Assembly: GCF_900113375.1 (NCBI RefSeq) | Contig: NZ_FOPC01000010.1 | Location: 101,559-165,558, forward strand | DNA length: 64,000 nucleotides | Origin: Algoriphagus hitonicola | Lineage (GTDB): Bacteria > Bacteroidota > Bacteroidia > Cytophagales > Cyclobacteriaceae | Direction: 5' to 3' | Part shown: in pieces, positions 1,387-9,324 of the stretch | How positions within the stretch are numbered: position 1 is the first letter of the stretch | Layout: every line of letters starts with the position of its first letter | Program-made: the position numbers and the translations under genes | The notes under the pieces: model-generated | The model's database searches: none | Told to the model about the DNA's origin: nothing | What the model saw: the letters and a program-made list of their open reading frames with translations, nothing else

Positions 1387-1420
1387 AACTTTTCCAAAGT
1401 TTTAGAACTTTGGAAAAGTT
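1387..1420. repeat. REP-like hairpin, 3' flank of the transposase
   Basis: Arms AACTTTTCCAAAG (1387-1399) and CTTTGGAAAAGTT (1408-1420) pair perfectly around an 8-nt loop TTTTAGAA. It lies between the transposase stop (1431) and the cas1 start (1363) and has the same arms as the hairpin at 89-121. Confidence 0.88.
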
Positions 1421-1430
1421 ACCTGATCCA

Positions 1431-2009
1431 CTATTCCAAATTTTTATTCATTAACCATTCCTTTTTCATTTTCATCATATTCTCCACATGTTCCCAACCG
1501 TCATAGAAATTTGTAAAATAGGCTCTTTGTAAATTTGAAGTCTTATTTAAATTTTGGTAAGCATGCCAACTCGACCATTTCCAATCAGGATGATCTTTGA
1601 CAAAACCATGTTTAACTGGATTGAGATGAATATATATAAAAGTCTCCTGCCATTGGTGTTCGTCAATAATGGGGGTTCTTTTGAAGTTCTTAATAAACAA
1701 ACTTCCTTTTCTATTATAAACTTTATTAAACGACTGAGTGTAAGAACTAAAGAATTTAGCGAATTGCTTAGAGATTAACTTTTCTAAAGTTTCGAACTTT
1801 GGAAAAGTTGACATCAATTGCTCTTCATCCATCACACCCACCAGCAAATGGAAATGATTCGGCATCAGGCAATAGGCATAAGTATCTACCACACCACTCA
1901 AATACTTGACATATTGCTGAAGAAAGAACCTATAATTCTCTTCGTCACGAAAGATATTCTCCATTCCGTTTGCGTGATTGTAGATATGATAGGATCGTCC
2001 TAGCTCCAT
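1431..2009 (-). CDS. REP-associated tyrosine transposase (Y1/HUH, TnpA_REP type)
   Basis: Single-strand DNA transposase of the IS200/IS605-related RAYT group, 192 residues. The HUH metal motif is H52-F-H54 in MPNHFHLLVG. The likely catalytic tyrosine is Y126 in FIYIHLNPVKHG, the signature strand of RAYTs, followed by the typical W-K-W-S-S stretch. Between the HUH motif and the SSYTQSFNKVYNRKGSLF block it carries about 30 residues. Residues 67-78 of this stretch are encoded by a copy of the element's own hairpin. The reading frame is intact, so it may be active. It lies co-oriented between cas9 and cas1. Confidence 0.92.
   Translation of the reverse strand: MELGRSYHIYNHANGMENIFRDEENYRFFLQQYVKYLSGVVDTYAYCLMPNHFHLLVGVMDEEQLMSTFPKFETLEKLISKQFAKFFSSYTQSFNKVYNRKGSLFIKNFKRTPIIDEHQWQETFIYIHLNPVKHGFVKDHPDWKWSSWHAYQNLNKTSNLQRAYFTNFYDGWEHVENMMKMKKEWLMNKNLE
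1777..1809. repeat. Hairpin copy embedded in the transposase coding sequence
   Basis: Arms AACTTTTCTAAAG (1777-1789) and CTTTGGAAAAGTT (1797-1809), with one T-G wobble and a 7-nt loop. It is nearly the same palindrome as those flanking the gene, but here it is translated as residues 67-78 (STFPKFETLEKL). Confidence 0.8.
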
Positions 2010-2042
2010 AAATTTAATTTTATAACGACTAGCTTAAGGGTA

Positions 2043-2076
2043 AACTCATCCAAAGTTTTAGAACTTTGGATGAGTT
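2043..2076. repeat. REP-like hairpin, 5' flank of the transposase, with paired substitutions
   Basis: Arms AACTCATCCAAAG (2043-2055) and CTTTGGATGAGTT (2064-2076) pair perfectly around TTTTAGAA. Compared with the hairpin at 1387, three positions in the left arm (TTT to CAT) are matched by complementary changes in the right arm. It lies in the 168-bp gap between cas9 and the transposase. Confidence 0.85.
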
Positions 2077-2177
2077 GAAGAAAGCACTTATAAAAATCCT
2101 TTTTTGGTAACCATCCTCCATGCTAATAGCGTCATTATAGGTATCGAAGTATTTAGATGGTCCCATTTATGTTTTTC

Positions 2178-5100
2178 CTATTTATTTATCTTTCCTAATC
2201 TATTTACTTTTATTTTTATGCAACACTCCTTAATTCTTTTGTCCGATTCGATTGTTAATTCTTGCTTATTTAAACTTCCGAGCTCACCAATTTTTGATTT
2301 GGAATCATAATTTTTTATTAATGCTGCGATATCAGCTCTTACAAAATGGCATTCTGGCCCAGTACAGCTAACCATTTTATAAATTCTACAAACCTGATTT
2401 TTTGAAAGGTTATTAAAATCGATTGTATCTATACTTTCCTCTTTATCAGGAACATAAACCAAATCATTTGGAGATAAATAAAACAAAAGTCTATCTTCTT
2501 TTTCATTCAATGGAGGAACTGGTTCCTCTCCCTGCTTAAGCCTTTCCATTACAATATTGAATGGAATTGTTTCATAACTTCTTTTCCCTTCATCATTCAC
2601 ATAAATTCCAAAGAAAAGGTTGGTGCCTTTAGCAGCTTCTACAAATTTGGACTTTTTGTTGCCTATATAACCTACTGGAAATTTATTCCCTTTTGGTTCA
2701 TAAGTCCTTACTTTATAAATTGGTTTATGGAATTTCCCTCTATTAAGGCTTATTATATTATTATTCATTTCCTCAATGCCTTCGGGTGTAAATGCCAATG
2801 TTTCGGGATCTATAACCTCTCCTTTGTCATTCTTAACCCCTTTATAATTCTCTAAATGATTAAGTAGAATTTTCTGTATTCCTGTATCAGTAACTGAATG
2901 AAGCTTTTTCTCTGAAAATGAAGTGTCTAAGCTAACTCTAGATGCTGCTAAATCTTTATCAAAGAAATAAACATCCACCTTTGAAATATCCTTTTCTTCA
3001 AACTTAAAACCTCTGTCTTTAAAATACTTTAAAAGCAATTTATTGTCATAGTTTAGATTTTTTAGTTCTACGATTTTCTTCTTGAGCTTTTTATCTAATA
3101 GATCCGAATGGATATCTAATGCTAATCTCAATGGAACTGTTTTCACCTTTCTTAATTCTACCAGACCTGAAACAGTATCCTTATGTATTGCCTTTCTAAT
3201 AGCCCATGAATCACCTTTTATCTGGGCGGTTAGTCCTTTTATAGGATTTCCATTTTTATCTTTTCTAATATTCCCTTCCTCGTCATAATAGCTCTGATAT
3301 TTATTTGTAGTCCTGTTGATAACTCTTAAGTTTTGTTTGAAGCTCACAGTAATTTTTCCCAAATTTTCTTTTGCGTCGGACGTAAATGATTCCCAAGGTT
3401 TATGAAAAACCCAATCAAAATCCTTGGCATTGTTGGAATTAGTTTTTTTGTAGCAAAGCTTGTGTTTAAGGTCAAATCTTCTTTGTTGCTTTTCCTCCTT
3501 ACCTCTATATTTCTTACCTAAAGCATGTTCATTGTTTAAATAATTCACGTGATCTCTAGTAGCACAGGCAATGACTAAAGCATCCAAGGCATGATGCCTG
3601 TGGTCTATTCTCTTCTTTTGAAACCCTTTCGAATACTCTATTGGAACAGTAGGTAAAAATTTCTGATGTTTTTTATTCCATGATGTAAAACTATTACTCG
3701 CGGTGATCTGATTCATTCTTTCAAATCTTGGAAGTATTAAGTCGTTCCATATATCATTAAGTCCCCAATCATTTTTTAATTCGTTAGTAATTTTACCATT
3801 ACCAGGAATTACATTTTTTGAATTGAATCCAGAATCATCTTGATTTGACCTCACAATATTGGACAAAATGGAGGTAACATACTTGCTTATATACTTAGTA
3901 TCGTTCATTTGTCTTTCTACCATTTTCTCTGGTAATTCATCCATCAATAACTTTCGCTTCTTAGCTGGATTTTTTGAATAATTATCTTGAACAAATGACT
4001 TGAAAGCACTTTCTGAAAAAATCTCGACCTCTTCTCCCATTCCCAAAGAAACCCGTTGTCCATGAAAATTTTTAATGAATTCTAACCCCATCATTTTGTC
4101 TTTAAGTTTGTTCACAGCCGATTCACAAATAACTTTATTGCTTAGGCTGTCATCAAAAAATCTTGATTGTGGAATCACATGCTCAATTTCATAAGCTGAG
4201 GTGAAAAGTTTATTTAAAGGGATTACTTTACCTGTGTAAGGTGACATGTATTTTTGTTCCAGCCATAATTTATACCTCTGTAAATCCGATCTTGATGGTT
4301 GGGCAGTTTTACTGATTTTCAAAATTTCATCTGGAACATCAATACTTGATTTTAAAATTCCTTCCTCGTAGATTTTAAGAATTTCCTGCTGCATGGGCGA
4401 AAAAGGCCTGACATTATCAACATCAGGATCTTCTAAAAGCTCAACTAACAATGCTTTTACTCTAAGATTTGTGCTTTCATTTTCTGAAATCACTTTTGAA
4501 AGTCTTTCCCTTTCGCCAGCAGGATTTTTCATATCCCTACCTAATTCTACATGGATTTCATCAAAAAAGTCTTTATTTCCATTCCCATACTGAAGCCATA
4601 TATCTTTTACCACTCTCAGGGTTTCAACTATTACCTGCTCAACAATAGGGTTTCTTAATGAATGTTGTTTGAAACCTTTAATAAATGACTCCAAGCCCTC
4701 ACTTGAATTCCATTTGGTGATTTCCGAAGCCTCAGAATGTCTACCATAAACCAAGTAATTTACAAACCATATAGGTAATCCCTGGAAATCTTCAACAGAG
4801 GTGAATTCTTTTGAAAGATCTCTCACTTTATCCTTGATTTCTGGATCATACTCGCCATTTAGTATTTTATCAATTCTTTCTAAGGTAGATAGCTCAATTT
4901 TTTCTGCACTCCAATTAGAACCAAACCTCATCAATGGAATCAACCTTTTAATTGCTTTGAGAGAGTAGGCACCGTAATCACTCTTATAAGGCGGAATTTT
5001 TTTAAACGAATCAACAAAAGATTGAACATCGAGATCCTTCTTTCTGGCAAATGATTTTAATGCTTTCTCAAATTCAACTTTATCAGTTACTGAATAAATT

Positions 5101-6770
5101 ACATGCCATAATGCTTCTTCAAATTCGCTTGTAAAGTTCTTGAAATCAAAACCTTCAACTTTCTCAAGTCTCTTCAAAATCTCAAACCTTGTCGGGTTAC
5201 AAGGGTATACTTTTGACTCGCCTTTCTCTACATCATAAACATAGTTCCATTTATAATTTAGGATTTCTGAATTTAATTCTTTCCCTTTAAGCCCTTCCTT
5301 AATAAGAAAGAACTTCATTAAATTTTTGCAATCAATTTCTTTCTGATTCATCAAAAAATCCAAGAGTTCTTCATACTGGTCTATATCTCCAAGAAATTTT
5401 TCGGTCACATATTTTTCATCTTTAATTCCAATAATCCTAAGGTTATTAATCCATTGCAACAACCTAAATTCTTGGTATAATGGATGGGATTTCGAAACAA
5501 CCTTTATTGGTGAAACATTTTCTATTCCATCCTTCATAAAAACTCTGCTCTCCAATGGACAATTGGAAATTGTTGATTTTTGGCTCCTTAAGGGTCTTTG
5601 GTAAAATATAATATCTTCAACCAAAAGATGAATCAAATCCTGGTTTTGAAGAAGGCTTTGATGGGAATAATTGTTTTTATACAATTCTCTGATACAGTCT
5701 GACAAAACCCCTTCATCATTCAGCTCAGAATGAAAACGTTTTTGGGAAATTAATATCGACTTTAATTCTTTTTTATAAAACTTCCTTTCAATTGTCCTAA
5801 TTAAGTCTCCTTTAATTTTCTGAGAGGGATTTGAAAGAAGATTATCATAGATAAACTCTCCAACCGTCTTGTTGGAGTCTTTTATTTCCTTTTCGGTTTT
5901 TTTCTTTCTTAGTCCCCAATCATCTTCGCTAGGAGCTCGAAAACTCCTTTTTTCATTTCCTTCTTTATCAAGTTTGACATTTCCTTCTTCATCAATATCA
6001 GTGGTTACAATGAAATCCTTTGTTTTTCCAAGCCAATCATCCATTGGGACTTTGCTTGATCTTCGATAAACCCACCCATTTTCCAATATCAAAGAATACC
6101 AAGTTTCTCCTTTTTTATTAGGACTTTCGTCTGCTGTAATTTCAATTACTTTCAAAGAATAAAATTCTTCGAGTTTATTTGCCTTCTCATCATCTTCCTC
6201 ACCTCTCAATTGATAATATCCTCTCTTTTGATTAAAGTTCAGAATTAACCAAGCCAATTCCTCTTTTTCAACTTTTTCTGTAATAGCCTTTTTCCTTAAA
6301 AAATATATCGTCCAATCATAAGGAATTTTTCTTCCACCCTTAACTAATTCTGGATGACTTGACTTAAATTCATTTAGCATTTCTTCGAAGGAATTCTTAA
6401 AAATGAACCCTTCCGTATTGTAGGCTATTTTAGGTTCAGACTCTTCAATAAACTTTCCTAGATTCTTCTCAAAATCAATTTGATCTGAAAAATGTTTAGG
6501 TAGAAAGTTTAAAACATTTAAAACCCTTAACAACCTTTCCCTTCTCAGCAAATGTCTTTCTCTTAGTCTTCTGACTCCTCTTAACCTCGTTCTTTCAGCA
6601 GTTTGTGAAATAGAATTACCTTTTTCAAATTCACCTAAAATATCTTGGCTCATAGGGATAATTCTAGATCCCATACCAAGAATTCTTCCTTCTCTTTCTT
6701 TAAAGTCTTGCTCTATCAAAGCCCATCCAATCGAGTTAGTCCCCAAATCCAATCCCAAAATCTTTTTCAT
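2178..6770 (-). CDS. cas9: CRISPR-associated endonuclease Cas9 (type II-C, large)
   Basis: RNA-guided DNA nuclease, 1530 residues, at the long end for the II-C Cas9s of Bacteroidota. Domains in order: RuvC-I with D8 in GLDLGTNSIGWA; an arginine-rich bridge helix near residues 58-85 (AERTRLRGVRRLRERHLLRR); a helical recognition lobe; RuvC-II with E742 in IHVELGRDM; HNH with H864 in YEIEHVIPQSR followed by DDSLSNK; RuvC-III with H1059-H1060 and D1063 in HHALDALV; then a long C-terminal PAM-interacting region. All four catalytic positions are present, so it should cut both strands. No cas4 or csn2 is present, consistent with subtype II-C. The gene is clearly more AT-rich (30-35 percent GC in two counted lines) than cas1 or tex. 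Confidence 0.97.
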   Translation of the reverse strand: MKKILGLDLGTNSIGWALIEQDFKEREGRILGMGSRIIPMSQDILGEFEKGNSISQTAERTRLRGVRRLRERHLLRRERLLRVLNVLNFLPKHFSDQIDFEKNLGKFIEESEPKIAYNTEGFIFKNSFEEMLNEFKSSHPELVKGGRKIPYDWTIYFLRKKAITEKVEKEELAWLILNFNQKRGYYQLRGEEDDEKANKLEEFYSLKVIEITADESPNKKGETWYSLILENGWVYRRSSKVPMDDWLGKTKDFIVTTDIDEEGNVKLDKEGNEKRSFRAPSEDDWGLRKKKTEKEIKDSNKTVGEFIYDNLLSNPSQKIKGDLIRTIERKFYKKELKSILISQKRFHSELNDEGVLSDCIRELYKNNYSHQSLLQNQDLIHLLVEDIIFYQRPLRSQKSTISNCPLESRVFMKDGIENVSPIKVVSKSHPLYQEFRLLQWINNLRIIGIKDEKYVTEKFLGDIDQYEELLDFLMNQKEIDCKNLMKFFLIKEGLKGKELNSEILNYKWNYVYDVEKGESKVYPCNPTRFEILKRLEKVEGFDFKNFTSEFEEALWHVIYSVTDKVEFEKALKSFARKKDLDVQSFVDSFKKIPPYKSDYGAYSLKAIKRLIPLMRFGSNWSAEKIELSTLERIDKILNGEYDPEIKDKVRDLSKEFTSVEDFQGLPIWFVNYLVYGRHSEASEITKWNSSEGLESFIKGFKQHSLRNPIVEQVIVETLRVVKDIWLQYGNGNKDFFDEIHVELGRDMKNPAGERERLSKVISENESTNLRVKALLVELLEDPDVDNVRPFSPMQQEILKIYEEGILKSSIDVPDEILKISKTAQPSRSDLQRYKLWLEQKYMSPYTGKVIPLNKLFTSAYEIEHVIPQSRFFDDSLSNKVICESAVNKLKDKMMGLEFIKNFHGQRVSLGMGEEVEIFSESAFKSFVQDNYSKNPAKKRKLLMDELPEKMVERQMNDTKYISKYVTSILSNIVRSNQDDSGFNSKNVIPGNGKITNELKNDWGLNDIWNDLILPRFERMNQITASNSFTSWNKKHQKFLPTVPIEYSKGFQKKRIDHRHHALDALVIACATRDHVNYLNNEHALGKKYRGKEEKQQRRFDLKHKLCYKKTNSNNAKDFDWVFHKPWESFTSDAKENLGKITVSFKQNLRVINRTTNKYQSYYDEEGNIRKDKNGNPIKGLTAQIKGDSWAIRKAIHKDTVSGLVELRKVKTVPLRLALDIHSDLLDKKLKKKIVELKNLNYDNKLLLKYFKDRGFKFEEKDISKVDVYFFDKDLAASRVSLDTSFSEKKLHSVTDTGIQKILLNHLENYKGVKNDKGEVIDPETLAFTPEGIEEMNNNIISLNRGKFHKPIYKVRTYEPKGNKFPVGYIGNKKSKFVEAAKGTNLFFGIYVNDEGKRSYETIPFNIVMERLKQGEEPVPPLNEKEDRLLFYLSPNDLVYVPDKEESIDTIDFNNLSKNQVCRIYKMVSCTGPECHFVRADIAALIKNYDSKSKIGELGSLNKQELTIESDKRIKECCIKIKVNRLGKINK

Positions 6771-7074: not shown

Positions 7075-9324
7075 TCAACCCCCAAACTTCCCCTTCAGCA
7101 TCGCCAGCTTCTCGGCCATGCTAGGTTCTTTTTGGTTGGGCTTTGCTGATCGATTTTCTTCAGGCTTGGCCATCTTTTTCCCACGCTCAGCGAAGGGATC
7201 CGACTTCATACTCAAGCCAATTCGCTTTCGGGCAGCATCGACTTCCATTACCGTCACCTGAACTTTTTGATTGACTTGGATCACTTCATTGGGATCTTTG
7301 ACAAATCGATCAGCCAAATGACTCAAATGCACCAAGCCATCCTGATGAACTCCTATATCCACAAATGCGCCAAAAGCCGTGATATTGGTTACCACACCGG
7401 GAAGTTTCATTCCTGTTTTCAGATCAGAAATGCTATTGACCCCTTCCTCAAACTGGAAGACCTCAAAACTCTCCCGCGGATCTCGCCCCGGTTTGGCCAA
7501 TTCTTGTAAAATGTCCTCTAGAGTCGGAATCCCTACTCGCTCAGAAACGTAATTTTTTAAGTTGATCCGCTGTCGGAGTTCCTCCGAACTCATCAAATCG
7601 GTAACAGTCGCACCCAAATCCTTGGCCATTTGCTCGACGAGTTCGTAGCGCTCCGGGTGAACTCCCGAACTGTCCAGGGGATGCTTGGCCTGACGAATCC
7701 GTAAAAATCCCGCTGCCTGTTCGTAGGCTTTTTCGCCCAATCTTGGCACTTTCAGCAATTGGGACCGACTTGAGAATGGACCATTTTGATTTCGATATTC
7801 TACAATGTTTTGCGCCAAGACAGGCCCCAGTCCAGAGACGTAGGTCAACAGCTGCTTGGAAGCAGTATTTACCTCCACTCCCACTCCATTTACAGCCGAC
7901 ATCACGGTATCATCCAGCGCATTTTTAAGCGCACTTTGATCGACATCGTGTTGATATTGCCCGACCCCGATGGATTTGGGATCGATTTTGACCAACTCGG
8001 CCAATGGATCCATCAAACGCCTTCCGATACTTACTGCTCCTCTCACAGTCAAATCCAAATCAGGAAATTCCTCCCGAGCCACATCCGAAGCCGAATAAAT
8101 CGATGCTCCAGACTCATTGACCATGGTGACGATAACAGATTTGGGTAATCCCAAATTTTTGACAAAAGCCTCCGTTTCCCGACCGGCAGTCCCGTTTCCT
8201 ATCGCAATCGCTTGGATAGAAAACTTTTCCGCAAGTCCTTTAACAGTCATGCCCGATTCGGCTGTTCTCCGTTGCGGTTCATGGGGATAGATTGCCTCAT
8301 AATGTAAAAATTGTCCCTGAGGCCCCAAACACACCAATTTACAGCCTGTTCGGAAACCCGGATCAATTGCCATCACTGCTTTTTCGCCTAGAGGCGCACC
8401 CAAAAGCAGCTGTCTCAAATTCTCCGCAAATACACGGATAGCTTCCTCATCGGCTTTCTTTTTAGTCATCAGACGAACCTCCGTCTCCATACTGGGCTTA
8501 AGCAATCGCTTATACGCATCTTTGATCGCCAAGTGAACTTGCTCTACCGAAGCGTTAGCGGCATTTTCTAAAATTTCCCGCTCCATCAACGCCAAAGCAT
8601 CGGCTTCCTCCGGACAAGAATCCAGCATCAAAAACAATTCCTTTTCCCCTCTTCTCATCGCCAATACTCGGTGAGAGGGTGCTGTTTTAATGGGTTCGGA
8701 CCAGTCAAAATAATCCTTGTATTTTATCGCTTCCTGCTCTTTTCCGGGGATGACTCGGGAAGTAAAGGATCCATGCTCTAAAAAAAGCTTTCGCATCTTT
8801 TCACGTAAAATCACATTTTCGTTGATCCACTCCGCAATGATATCCCGTGCACCCTGAAGGGCCTCCTCGATGCTATTGACTTCTTGAGCTGCATCCACAT
8901 ATTCAGCCGCAGTCTGCTCGATATCCAAAGATTCTTGCTTAAAAATCTGTTTAGCAAGCGGCTCCAAGCCTTTCTCCCGCGCAATGGTCGCCTTGGTTCG
9001 TCGTTTAGGTTTATAAGGAAGATAAATATCTTCGAGTTTTGCCATCGTCTCAGCAGTGGCGATGGACTGTAGAAGGACATCTGTCATTTTCCCTTGCTCC
9101 TCGATTGACTTGATTACCGCTTCCTTTCGCTTATCCAAATCCCGCAGTTGTTGCAGGCGATCCCGGACCGCAGCAACTTGCACTTCATCCAAGCTTCCGG
9201 TGACTTCCTTTCGATAGCGGGAAATAAAAGGTACTGTCGCTCCTCCGTCCAAAAGCTCGATCGTCGCTTTTACCTGGGCCGGTCGAACCTGCAGTTCGGA
9301 AGAAATTTTTACTTCGTAATTCAT
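7075..9324 (-). CDS. tex: Tex family RNA-binding transcription accessory protein
   Basis: Highly conserved nucleic-acid-binding protein of the Tex/Spt6-like family, about 749 residues. Regions in order: N-terminal Tex helical domain (EVKISSELQVRPAQVKATI onward); a YqgF/RNase H-like domain around VMAIDPGFRTGCKLVCLG; a helix-hairpin-helix region (YVSGLGPVLAQNIVEYR); and a C-terminal S1 domain (VVTNITAFGAFVDIGVHQDGLVH). I chose the ATG at 9324 because the protein then begins MNYEVKISSELQ as in the family. The longer ORF to 9453 adds 43 residues unlike the family. About 50 percent GC in one counted line, in contrast with cas9. Confidence 0.93.
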   Translation of the reverse strand: MNYEVKISSELQVRPAQVKATIELLDGGATVPFISRYRKEVTGSLDEVQVAAVRDRLQQLRDLDKRKEAVIKSIEEQGKMTDVLLQSIATAETMAKLEDIYLPYKPKRRTKATIAREKGLEPLAKQIFKQESLDIEQTAAEYVDAAQEVNSIEEALQGARDIIAEWINENVILREKMRKLFLEHGSFTSRVIPGKEQEAIKYKDYFDWSEPIKTAPSHRVLAMRRGEKELFLMLDSCPEEADALALMEREILENAANASVEQVHLAIKDAYKRLLKPSMETEVRLMTKKKADEEAIRVFAENLRQLLLGAPLGEKAVMAIDPGFRTGCKLVCLGPQGQFLHYEAIYPHEPQRRTAESGMTVKGLAEKFSIQAIAIGNGTAGRETEAFVKNLGLPKSVIVTMVNESGASIYSASDVAREEFPDLDLTVRGAVSIGRRLMDPLAELVKIDPKSIGVGQYQHDVDQSALKNALDDTVMSAVNGVGVEVNTASKQLLTYVSGLGPVLAQNIVEYRNQNGPFSSRSQLLKVPRLGEKAYEQAAGFLRIRQAKHPLDSSGVHPERYELVEQMAKDLGATVTDLMSSEELRQRINLKNYVSERVGIPTLEDILQELAKPGRDPRESFEVFQFEEGVNSISDLKTGMKLPGVVTNITAFGAFVDIGVHQDGLVHLSHLADRFVKDPNEVIQVNQKVQVTVMEVDAARKRIGLSMKSDPFAERGKKMAKPEENRSAKPNQKEPSMAEKLAMLKGKFGG

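Follow-up and report, generated by a model that had tools for sequence, protein, structure and literature searches.

A RAYT-like Y1/HUH gene with its own palindromes recurs between cas9 and cas1 in type II-C CRISPR-Cas operons of Bacteroidota

Background

In the 64,000-nt stretch of Algoriphagus hitonicola DNA analysed here (the window; RefSeq assembly GCF_900113375.1, contig NZ_FOPC01000010.1, positions 101,559 to 165,558), a type II-C CRISPR-Cas operon contains a transposase-like gene of the RAYT kind, placed between cas9 and cas1. The question raised by this locus is whether such a gene is an accidental insertion or a long-term partner of the adaptation genes cas1 and cas2. Surveys of CRISPR-linked genes may easily discard transposases as noise, in which case a Y1 gene that repeatedly accompanies cas1 might escape notice.

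Elsewhere, TnpA_REP was described to cleave single-stranded REP hairpins with a covalent Tyr-5'P link and strand transfer (PMC8266576). A derivation of CRISPRs from REPIN-like elements was put forward as speculation in PMC3116915. No account of a RAYT or other Y1 gene adjoining cas1 was found among the open-access papers listed by literature searches, although one of the 188 modules of PMC10910872 might be such a case.

Results

Organisation of the cas locus

The window start holds the end of a type II-C cas operon with cas9, a type II cas1 and cas2 together. In the ORF list of the window, the minus-strand order is cas9, RAYT, cas1 and cas2, all four genes being co-directional. The features in this order are:

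2178-6770, minus strand: cas9, 1530 aa; TIGR01865 at 387 bits; RuvC_III and HNH_4
2079-2177, minus strand: leader from the cas9 stop to the 5' palindrome, by homology perhaps a decayed RAYT 5' end
2041-2078: 5' palindrome, between the cas9 stop and the RAYT start
1431-2009, minus strand: RAYT-like Y1/HUH gene, 192 aa; HUH residues His52 and His54, Y-motif Tyr126
1777-1809: internal palindrome, within the RAYT reading frame at about residues 67-78 (STFPKFETLEKL)
1387-1420: 3' palindrome, between the RAYT stop and the cas1 start; 15-bp arms, 4-nt loop
467-1363, minus strand: cas1, 298 aa; type II (NMENI) family; TIGR03639 at 299 bits
127-519, minus strand: cas2, TIGR01573, overlapping the end of cas1
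87-123: fourth palindrome, directly 3' of cas2

The three core genes, their order and their strand are those of a type II-C operon, from which the window operon differs by the additional Y1 gene between cas9 and cas1. The ORF list contained no further ORF of at least 80 aa between cas2 and the window start, and a scan of the window with Rfam at gathering scores gave no match. The original prediction of a complete, co-directional RAYT-like gene between cas9 and cas1, bracketed by palindromes, was correct. Both flanking palindromes are real; the one in the reading frame and the one after cas2 had been missed.

Identity and conservation of the protein

The NF047646 profile (REP_Tyr_transpos) matched the window protein at E 2.7e-19 and 69.5 bits, short of its curated cut-off of 80, and matched 60 of 60 rows of the RAYT alignment A1 at E<=0.001; Pfam Y1_Tnp reached only E 0.036. 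When the PDB was searched with a profile of 60 relatives, TnpA_REP (4er8) was the sole match at E<=1 (E 1.2e-7). It was also the best Foldseek match (E 1.2e-8, TM 0.60/0.69) of the predicted fold, which had a pLDDT of 95.

His52, His54, Tyr126 and Ser147 are present in 43/43 cas-linked RAYTs, and the N and P of the Y---NP motif in 42/43, the exception being L065. The window protein has NHFH as HUH motif and YIHLNP as Y motif; some relatives have YIHHNP, YIHNNP or YIHQNP. W120 (22/43) and Q121 (24/43) are not conserved.

RAYT dN/dS was 0.05-0.25 in each of 12 pairs, most of which had a dS close to or exceeding 1, and was greater than that of Cas1 in all 7 of the 12 pairs for which both were computable. 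Judging by these ratios, the gene is under purifying selection. Based on the NF047646 and 4er8 matches, the conserved motif residues and the low dN/dS, the window RAYT was regarded as a Y1/HUH protein that is intact and under selection. The 3' end of RAYT overlaps the cas1 start by 8 nt at L049, L201 and L204, and RAYT is therefore an operon gene in these three loci.

Recurrence in the cas9-cas1 slot

The survey of the window's family covered 245 genomes; Cas1 relatives were detected in 53 (E<=1e-20), and 32 of these 53 had a co-directional RAYT less than 500 bp upstream of cas1. The chance of finding a RAYT upstream of cas1 was estimated at about 1e-4 per locus, assuming two RAYTs per genome, with related loci not being independent. 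At class level, 395 genomes were surveyed. A Cas1 relative at E<=1e-30 was present in 84, of which 77 (76 outside the family) were searched for RAYTs; three already in the family count and four with partial or weak matches were left out. A RAYT directly upstream of cas1 and co-directional was found in at least 9 of the 77, all nine outside the window's family, this count being read by eye and scored on RAYT-cas1 adjacency only.

A recent insertion was rejected because of this recurrence (32/53) and the purifying selection on the ORF. Together with the 8-nt overlap with cas1 in three loci, these results speak against the original picture of a unit that has just split the operon.

The content of the slot was scored in the nearest 80 of 231 Cas1 relatives in named genomes. 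It was a RAYT in 20 loci; 12 loci, all from Flavobacterium, had a 143-aa subclass-1.2-like Y1 protein, one had a third Y1 type, and three were other or unclear; the remaining 44 slots held no gene, which bears out the expectation that cas9 abuts cas1 at most loci without RAYT. Scored as other or unclear were L101, L114 and L068, the last probably empty with a cas9 match ending 21 nt before cas1. L059, L062 and L063 are close Cas1 relatives of the window without RAYT in the slot.

The slot of L101, from a Flavobacterium MAG, holds a HIRAN-domain protein of 285 aa (PF08797, E 4.9e-13). At G266:C36, G312:C29 and G414:C66, RAYT matches were also found directly downstream of cas1, G266 having RAYTs on both sides.

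The recurrence could also be due to a semi-mobile REPtron that repeatedly entered, or was carried in, a permissive cas9-cas1 slot, being small, leaving the operon unbroken and having no role in CRISPR. Its absence from close Cas1 relatives fits this explanation. On the other side, 33 of the 36 slots not scored as empty hold a Y1 protein rather than mixed insertion sequences (the 12 Flavobacterium loci counting perhaps as one event), dN/dS stays low, and RAYT overlaps cas1 in the three loci named above.

Other Y1 types in the slot

The 143-aa Y1_Tnp protein of the Flavobacterium slots (L074: PF01797, E 3.8e-28) has the motifs DHCH and Y---Q--HH (YIRNQEEHH and variants). The Y---Q--HH signature is shared with subclass 1.2 of Quentin 2018, a Y1 subclass other than that of the window gene, which was described without cas context in a text with no occurrence of the word CRISPR (PMC6006769). 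In the 12 loci (L074, L079, L082, L092, L093, L095, L098, L099, L100, L104, L105 and L108), mean identity was 93% for Cas1 and 88% for Y1, and the median dN/dS of Y1 was 0.065. The loci are close relatives and may represent a single event.

In the 11 of the 12 genomes that were searched, the cas-linked Y1 was 83-100% identical to that of L074, and other matches did not exceed 41%. Relatives 66-75% identical to the protein occur outside the locus. One of 74% identity was found in G494, not next to cas1; in addition, two Flavobacterium genomes whose slot is empty carry a Y1 relative elsewhere, one copy being broken. No hairpin was scored near the Y1 gene in 9 of the 12 loci, yet these genes are as similar to the L074 copy as stated above, which speaks against a hitch-hiking REPtron.

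A third Y1-like type with an MPNHFHAI motif was found in the slot of L128 (Sinomicrobium), with a weak Y1_Tnp match (E 0.15; shortened query).

Flanking and post-cas2 palindromes

The four near-perfect palindromes at the cas locus belong to one sequence family. When the window was shuffled 100 times, the 34-nt pattern of the 3' palindrome never matched, even with up to 3 mismatches allowed, so that the observation exceeds chance. A search of the 4.33-Mb genome for the exact core CCAAAGTT-N(0-6)-AACTTTGG gave just 5 sites, of which 3 belong to the cas locus; the palindrome is therefore not an abundant genome-wide REP. In 11 RAYT-carrying genomes, 32 of 94 palindrome cores of two types lay less than 3 kb from cas1, a proportion favoured by picking both core types from cas loci. 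A GT[AG]G within a few nt of the palindrome foot was present at 3 of 87 cas-linked palindromes and at none of the three examined in the window.

At least one palindrome scoring 11 or more was found at 41 of 44 cas-linked RAYT copies, with palindromes on both sides of RAYT in 13/44 and on the 3' side in 29/44. As a finding that would count against it, the original prediction had named a transposase fixed in many cas operons and lacking palindromes on its flanks; the gene does recur in many cas operons, and nearly all cas-linked copies keep a palindrome. A post-cas2 palindrome was present in 14/17 RAYT-carrying versus 1/7 RAYT-less loci examined (one-sided Fisher P 0.0037), and in 13/17 RAYT-carrying loci (P 0.0088) when L067, where it sits further off, was not counted.

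The second RAYT of the genome of L015 (G000:C11, about 2578-4162) is flanked by its own, different palindromes of the aacctttgaggtc type. Clusters of CCAAAGTT-type palindromes, mostly spaced by 100-200 nt, were observed at G121:C8:111109-112563 and C15:6241-6986, the C8 cluster having wider gaps; the cas9-cas1 slot of G121 is without RAYT.

RNA folding gave -17.3 to -20.3 kcal/mol (z -5.6 to -7.6) for the three hairpins between genes and -10.5 kcal/mol (z -3.9) for the one inside RAYT. Such hairpins in the mRNA might set the ratio of Cas9 to Cas1-Cas2 by processing, stability or partial termination, and the protein might autoregulate through the hairpin in its own message. The stable folding of all four palindromes (z -3.9 to -7.6) would agree with this, as would the recurrence of the in-ORF and post-cas2 positions in relatives. 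Regulation of this kind was nevertheless considered improbable: judged by eye from the sequence, no T-run follows the window palindromes, the in-ORF hairpin is lost in part of the loci while the ORF stays (see below), and what is known of the RAYT family points to single-stranded DNA rather than RNA as substrate.

Palindrome inside the reading frame

Of the 44 cas-linked RAYT ORFs, 40 contain a hairpin that scores at least 12 (median 16), located at a corresponding position in the gene. With 20 synonymous recodings per ORF as control, the mean score was 6.5 and the maximum 12 over all RAYT ORFs. The window hairpin scores 12, and the highest score among the 20 recodings of the window gene was 8. 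The score is below 12 in L045, L200, L201 and L204, yet the RAYT ORF is kept. The in-ORF palindrome is not specific for cas loci, being present in 16 of 45 other RAYT ORFs as well.

The palindrome begins 180-313 nt past the assigned start codon and, in the predicted structure of the window protein, encodes the link from the HUH region to the long helix 75-97. Its sequence differs between clades (e.g. CCAAAGTT, ACCTGTCAGGT, CCCTCCAAGGGTT and ACACCGTGACT types), and despite this variation 36 of 40 in-ORF palindromes encode F-x-x-(L/F), with a hydrophobic residue three places before the F in 33 of 40; L107, L109, L118 and L206 are misfits to this peptide pattern. Internal and flanking palindromes were more alike within a locus than across shuffled loci (32 loci, P 2e-4), and L051 and L214 contain palindrome mosaics within the locus. 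In-frame REPs in tnpA_REP genes were described as a feature of subclass 2.4 and of some members of subclass 2.8 (Quentin 2018, PMC6006769); unlike the palindromes found here, those REPs have GT[AG]G feet.

Leader and partial RAYT copies

Upstream of RAYT, L052, L061 and L212 contain tandemly arranged pieces of the RAYT 5' end that are followed by palindromes. Eighteen loci had a leader of 90 nt or longer, and in 9 of them a RAYT 5' remnant outscored every one of 200 shuffles. In the window leader (2079-2177) no remnant was detectable, 85 of 200 shuffles scoring as high. The window leader aligns continuously with the leader of L051, in which a remnant is detectable, and judging from L051 and other loci it may have arisen by decay of a RAYT 5' copy.

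Co-divergence with Cas1 and exchange of Cas9

Distances of RAYT and Cas1 were correlated across 43 loci (Spearman 0.60, P 5e-4) and in the 19 loci close to the window (0.42, P 0.019). Against Cas9 tail distances, for which 41 loci had a Cas9 end that could be read, rho was 0.11 for RAYT (P 0.045) and 0.11 for Cas1 (P 0.067). The nearest RAYT, that of L212, is 88% identical to the window's, its Cas9 tail only 21%. In 18 loci, Cas1 had an identity of 0.82-0.94 to that of the window, whereas the identity of the Cas9 tail varied from 0.14 to 0.80. The suggested uncoupling of cas9 from cas1-cas2 holds at the level of inheritance, Cas9 differing strongly where RAYT and Cas1 are alike.

In L027 (G143), Cas1 is 92% identical to the window's and RAYT only 41%, which shows that RAYT was exchanged in this slot. 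A quick tree was made of 88 RAYTs, including 45 that are not cas-linked, many of these 45 having been chosen deliberately as comparison sequences. Along this tree the cas label switches 12 times as against 29.5 in shuffles, and at least 6 changes are forced by starred branches. On this tree, the gene has made several entries into or exits from cas loci. Exclusive occurrence at cas loci was rejected, as some of the non-cas sequences are nested in cas-linked clades. RAYTs of the same clade lie away from cas genes at L215, L216, L135 and L160; from names read off translations, we take the adjoining genes there to be sulfatase-like. The replacement in L027 and the presence of the clade at unrelated loci favour a hitch-hiking element.

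The start of homology was determined for all 119 locus pairs with Cas1 at least 80% and Cas9 tail less than 35% identical. It was spread over many points, in most pairs within the stretch that extends from about 130 nt upstream of RAYT to its start. Where both loci had a 5' palindrome (30 pairs), homology started no more than 25 nt from the palindrome on both sides in 7; in the remaining 89 pairs, the median start was the RAYT start codon itself. Pairs with L027 were homologous only from cas1 onward, and in the exchanged pair L051/L052 homology started 65 nt upstream of the 5' palindrome. Given this spread, RAYT goes with cas1, and the palindrome is not established as a breakpoint.

Two candidate models were dropped. 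A Cas9 exchange ending at the 5' palindrome fitted three hand-picked pairs (6-18 nt upstream) and failed in the systematic count (7/30). A mobile RAYT-cas1-cas2 cassette reaching from the 5' to the post-cas2 palindrome was abandoned because homology between loci with different Cas9 continues past the post-cas2 palindrome (for example L011/L212, L011/L057 and L051/L055); the palindromes are therefore not the borders of a mobile cassette.

Directly after cas9 and upstream of Y1, a second copy of the cas1 start, comprising about its first 35-39 codons, was observed in L074 (about 7080-7184) and L098 (about 7085-7201), the only two cases among the loci examined. It is perhaps the scar of a cas9 exchange.

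RAYT and its palindromes might also act as a recombination joint favouring the replacement of one cas9 allele by another, with RAYT-cas1-cas2 left in place. The wide range of Cas9 tail identities among loci with similar Cas1 and the duplicated cas1 starts of the two Flavobacterium loci are in line with such a joint. The scatter of homology starts, few of them near the 5' palindrome, is not, and Cas9 is exchanged also where cas9 adjoins cas1, as described for F. psychrophilum (PMC10309648). A joint function was rated as very unlikely, slightly below the regulatory function of the hairpins.

Discussion

Relation to known RAYT and REP systems

The window RAYT shares the HUH motif, the Y---NP motif, the predicted fold (best match 4er8), palindromes on either side and a low gene copy number with the E. 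coli TnpA_REP REPtron (4er8; Nunvar 2010; class 2 of Quentin 2018). It differs from a canonical REPtron by the missing GT[AG]G foot, the few genomic copies of the palindrome and the location in a cas operon. As the GT[AG]G foot and a large number of dispersed palindromes are both absent, the gene was named RAYT-like, class 2 of Quentin 2018.

Two subclasses described in that paper come close. Subclass 2.4 (Bertels group 4) has, like the window gene, an in-frame palindrome in a region of variable length between the HUH and Y motifs. The REPs described for it have a GT[AG]G foot, either canonical or double, its Y motif is YIxNNP, and it lacks a conserved-serine tail. Here, the window palindromes examined have no GT[AG]G foot, the window protein has YIHLNP, and Ser147 is present in 43/43 cas-linked RAYTs. 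Subclass 2.6 (Bertels group 5), from Bacteroidetes, shares the host phylum, palindromes without GT[AG]G and an SS motif after the core. Its motifs are given as NH[LIV]H and YIH[QN]NP, in contrast to NHFH and YIHLNP of the window, and the passages describing it make no mention of internal palindromes such as that of the window RAYT. RAYT-like protein, palindromes, in-frame palindrome and II-C operon are each of a known kind; for their recurring combination no description was found among the papers listed by the literature searches.

Resident gene or hitch-hiker

Observed for RAYT were the recurrence in the slot, the co-directional position, selection, an intact HUH/Tyr motif, a co-divergence with Cas1 that far exceeds that with Cas9, and locus-specific palindromes. 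We favour the reading that RAYT is a long-resident, REPtron-like gene for a Y1/HUH single-strand DNA endonuclease on the adaptation side (RAYT-cas1-cas2) of the II-C operon, and give it an even chance. It is not placed higher because a REPtron that hitch-hikes in a permissive position would account for a large part of these observations, and published RAYTs, too, are maintained as single genes accompanied by REPs (Nunvar 2010, PMC2817692; Quentin 2018, PMC6006769); this competing explanation is a serious one, although its probability falls short of even.

By analogy with its family, the protein would bind the four palindromes as single-stranded hairpins, and may nick and rejoin DNA beside them by the same chemistry as TnpA_REP. 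Nicking and rejoining would explain the likeness of internal and flanking palindromes as well as the tandem partial 5' copies in some loci; either the activity of the enzyme itself or recombination may keep the palindromes alike. With less confidence, RAYT might be kept since its DNA activity, or a hairpin-based regulation of the operon, helps the Cas1-Cas2 module. A role with Cas1-Cas2 is plausible in view of the recurrence upstream of cas1, the low dN/dS, the overlap with cas1 in three loci and the use of the slot by different Y1 types. The last point, repeated use of one slot by different Y1 types, points to a benefit for Cas1-Cas2 without proving it.

More generally, and only tentatively, Y1/HUH endonucleases could be a recurrent auxiliary of II-C spacer acquisition in Bacteroidota. 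Different Y1 types (RAYT-like, subclass-1.2-like and a third one) would then have been recruited independently to the slot upstream of cas1, and would stay with cas1-cas2 during the exchange of cas9 and act on single-stranded hairpins or prespacer ends, RAYT carrying its own recognition palindrome. If this is true, the recognition palindrome within the gene means that site and peptide of RAYT change together. The in-gene palindrome is in any case a clean example of a single stretch of DNA serving as hairpin site and as coding sequence.

The recurrence of RAYT in the same place of many related bacteria suggests a long-term partner rather than an accidental insertion. If it is not functional there, a RAYT-like gene persists by riding with the adaptation module while cas9 is exchanged. 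If it is functional, type II-C adaptation would have a single-strand nuclease partner, and prespacer handling without Cas4 or Csn2 would become testable.
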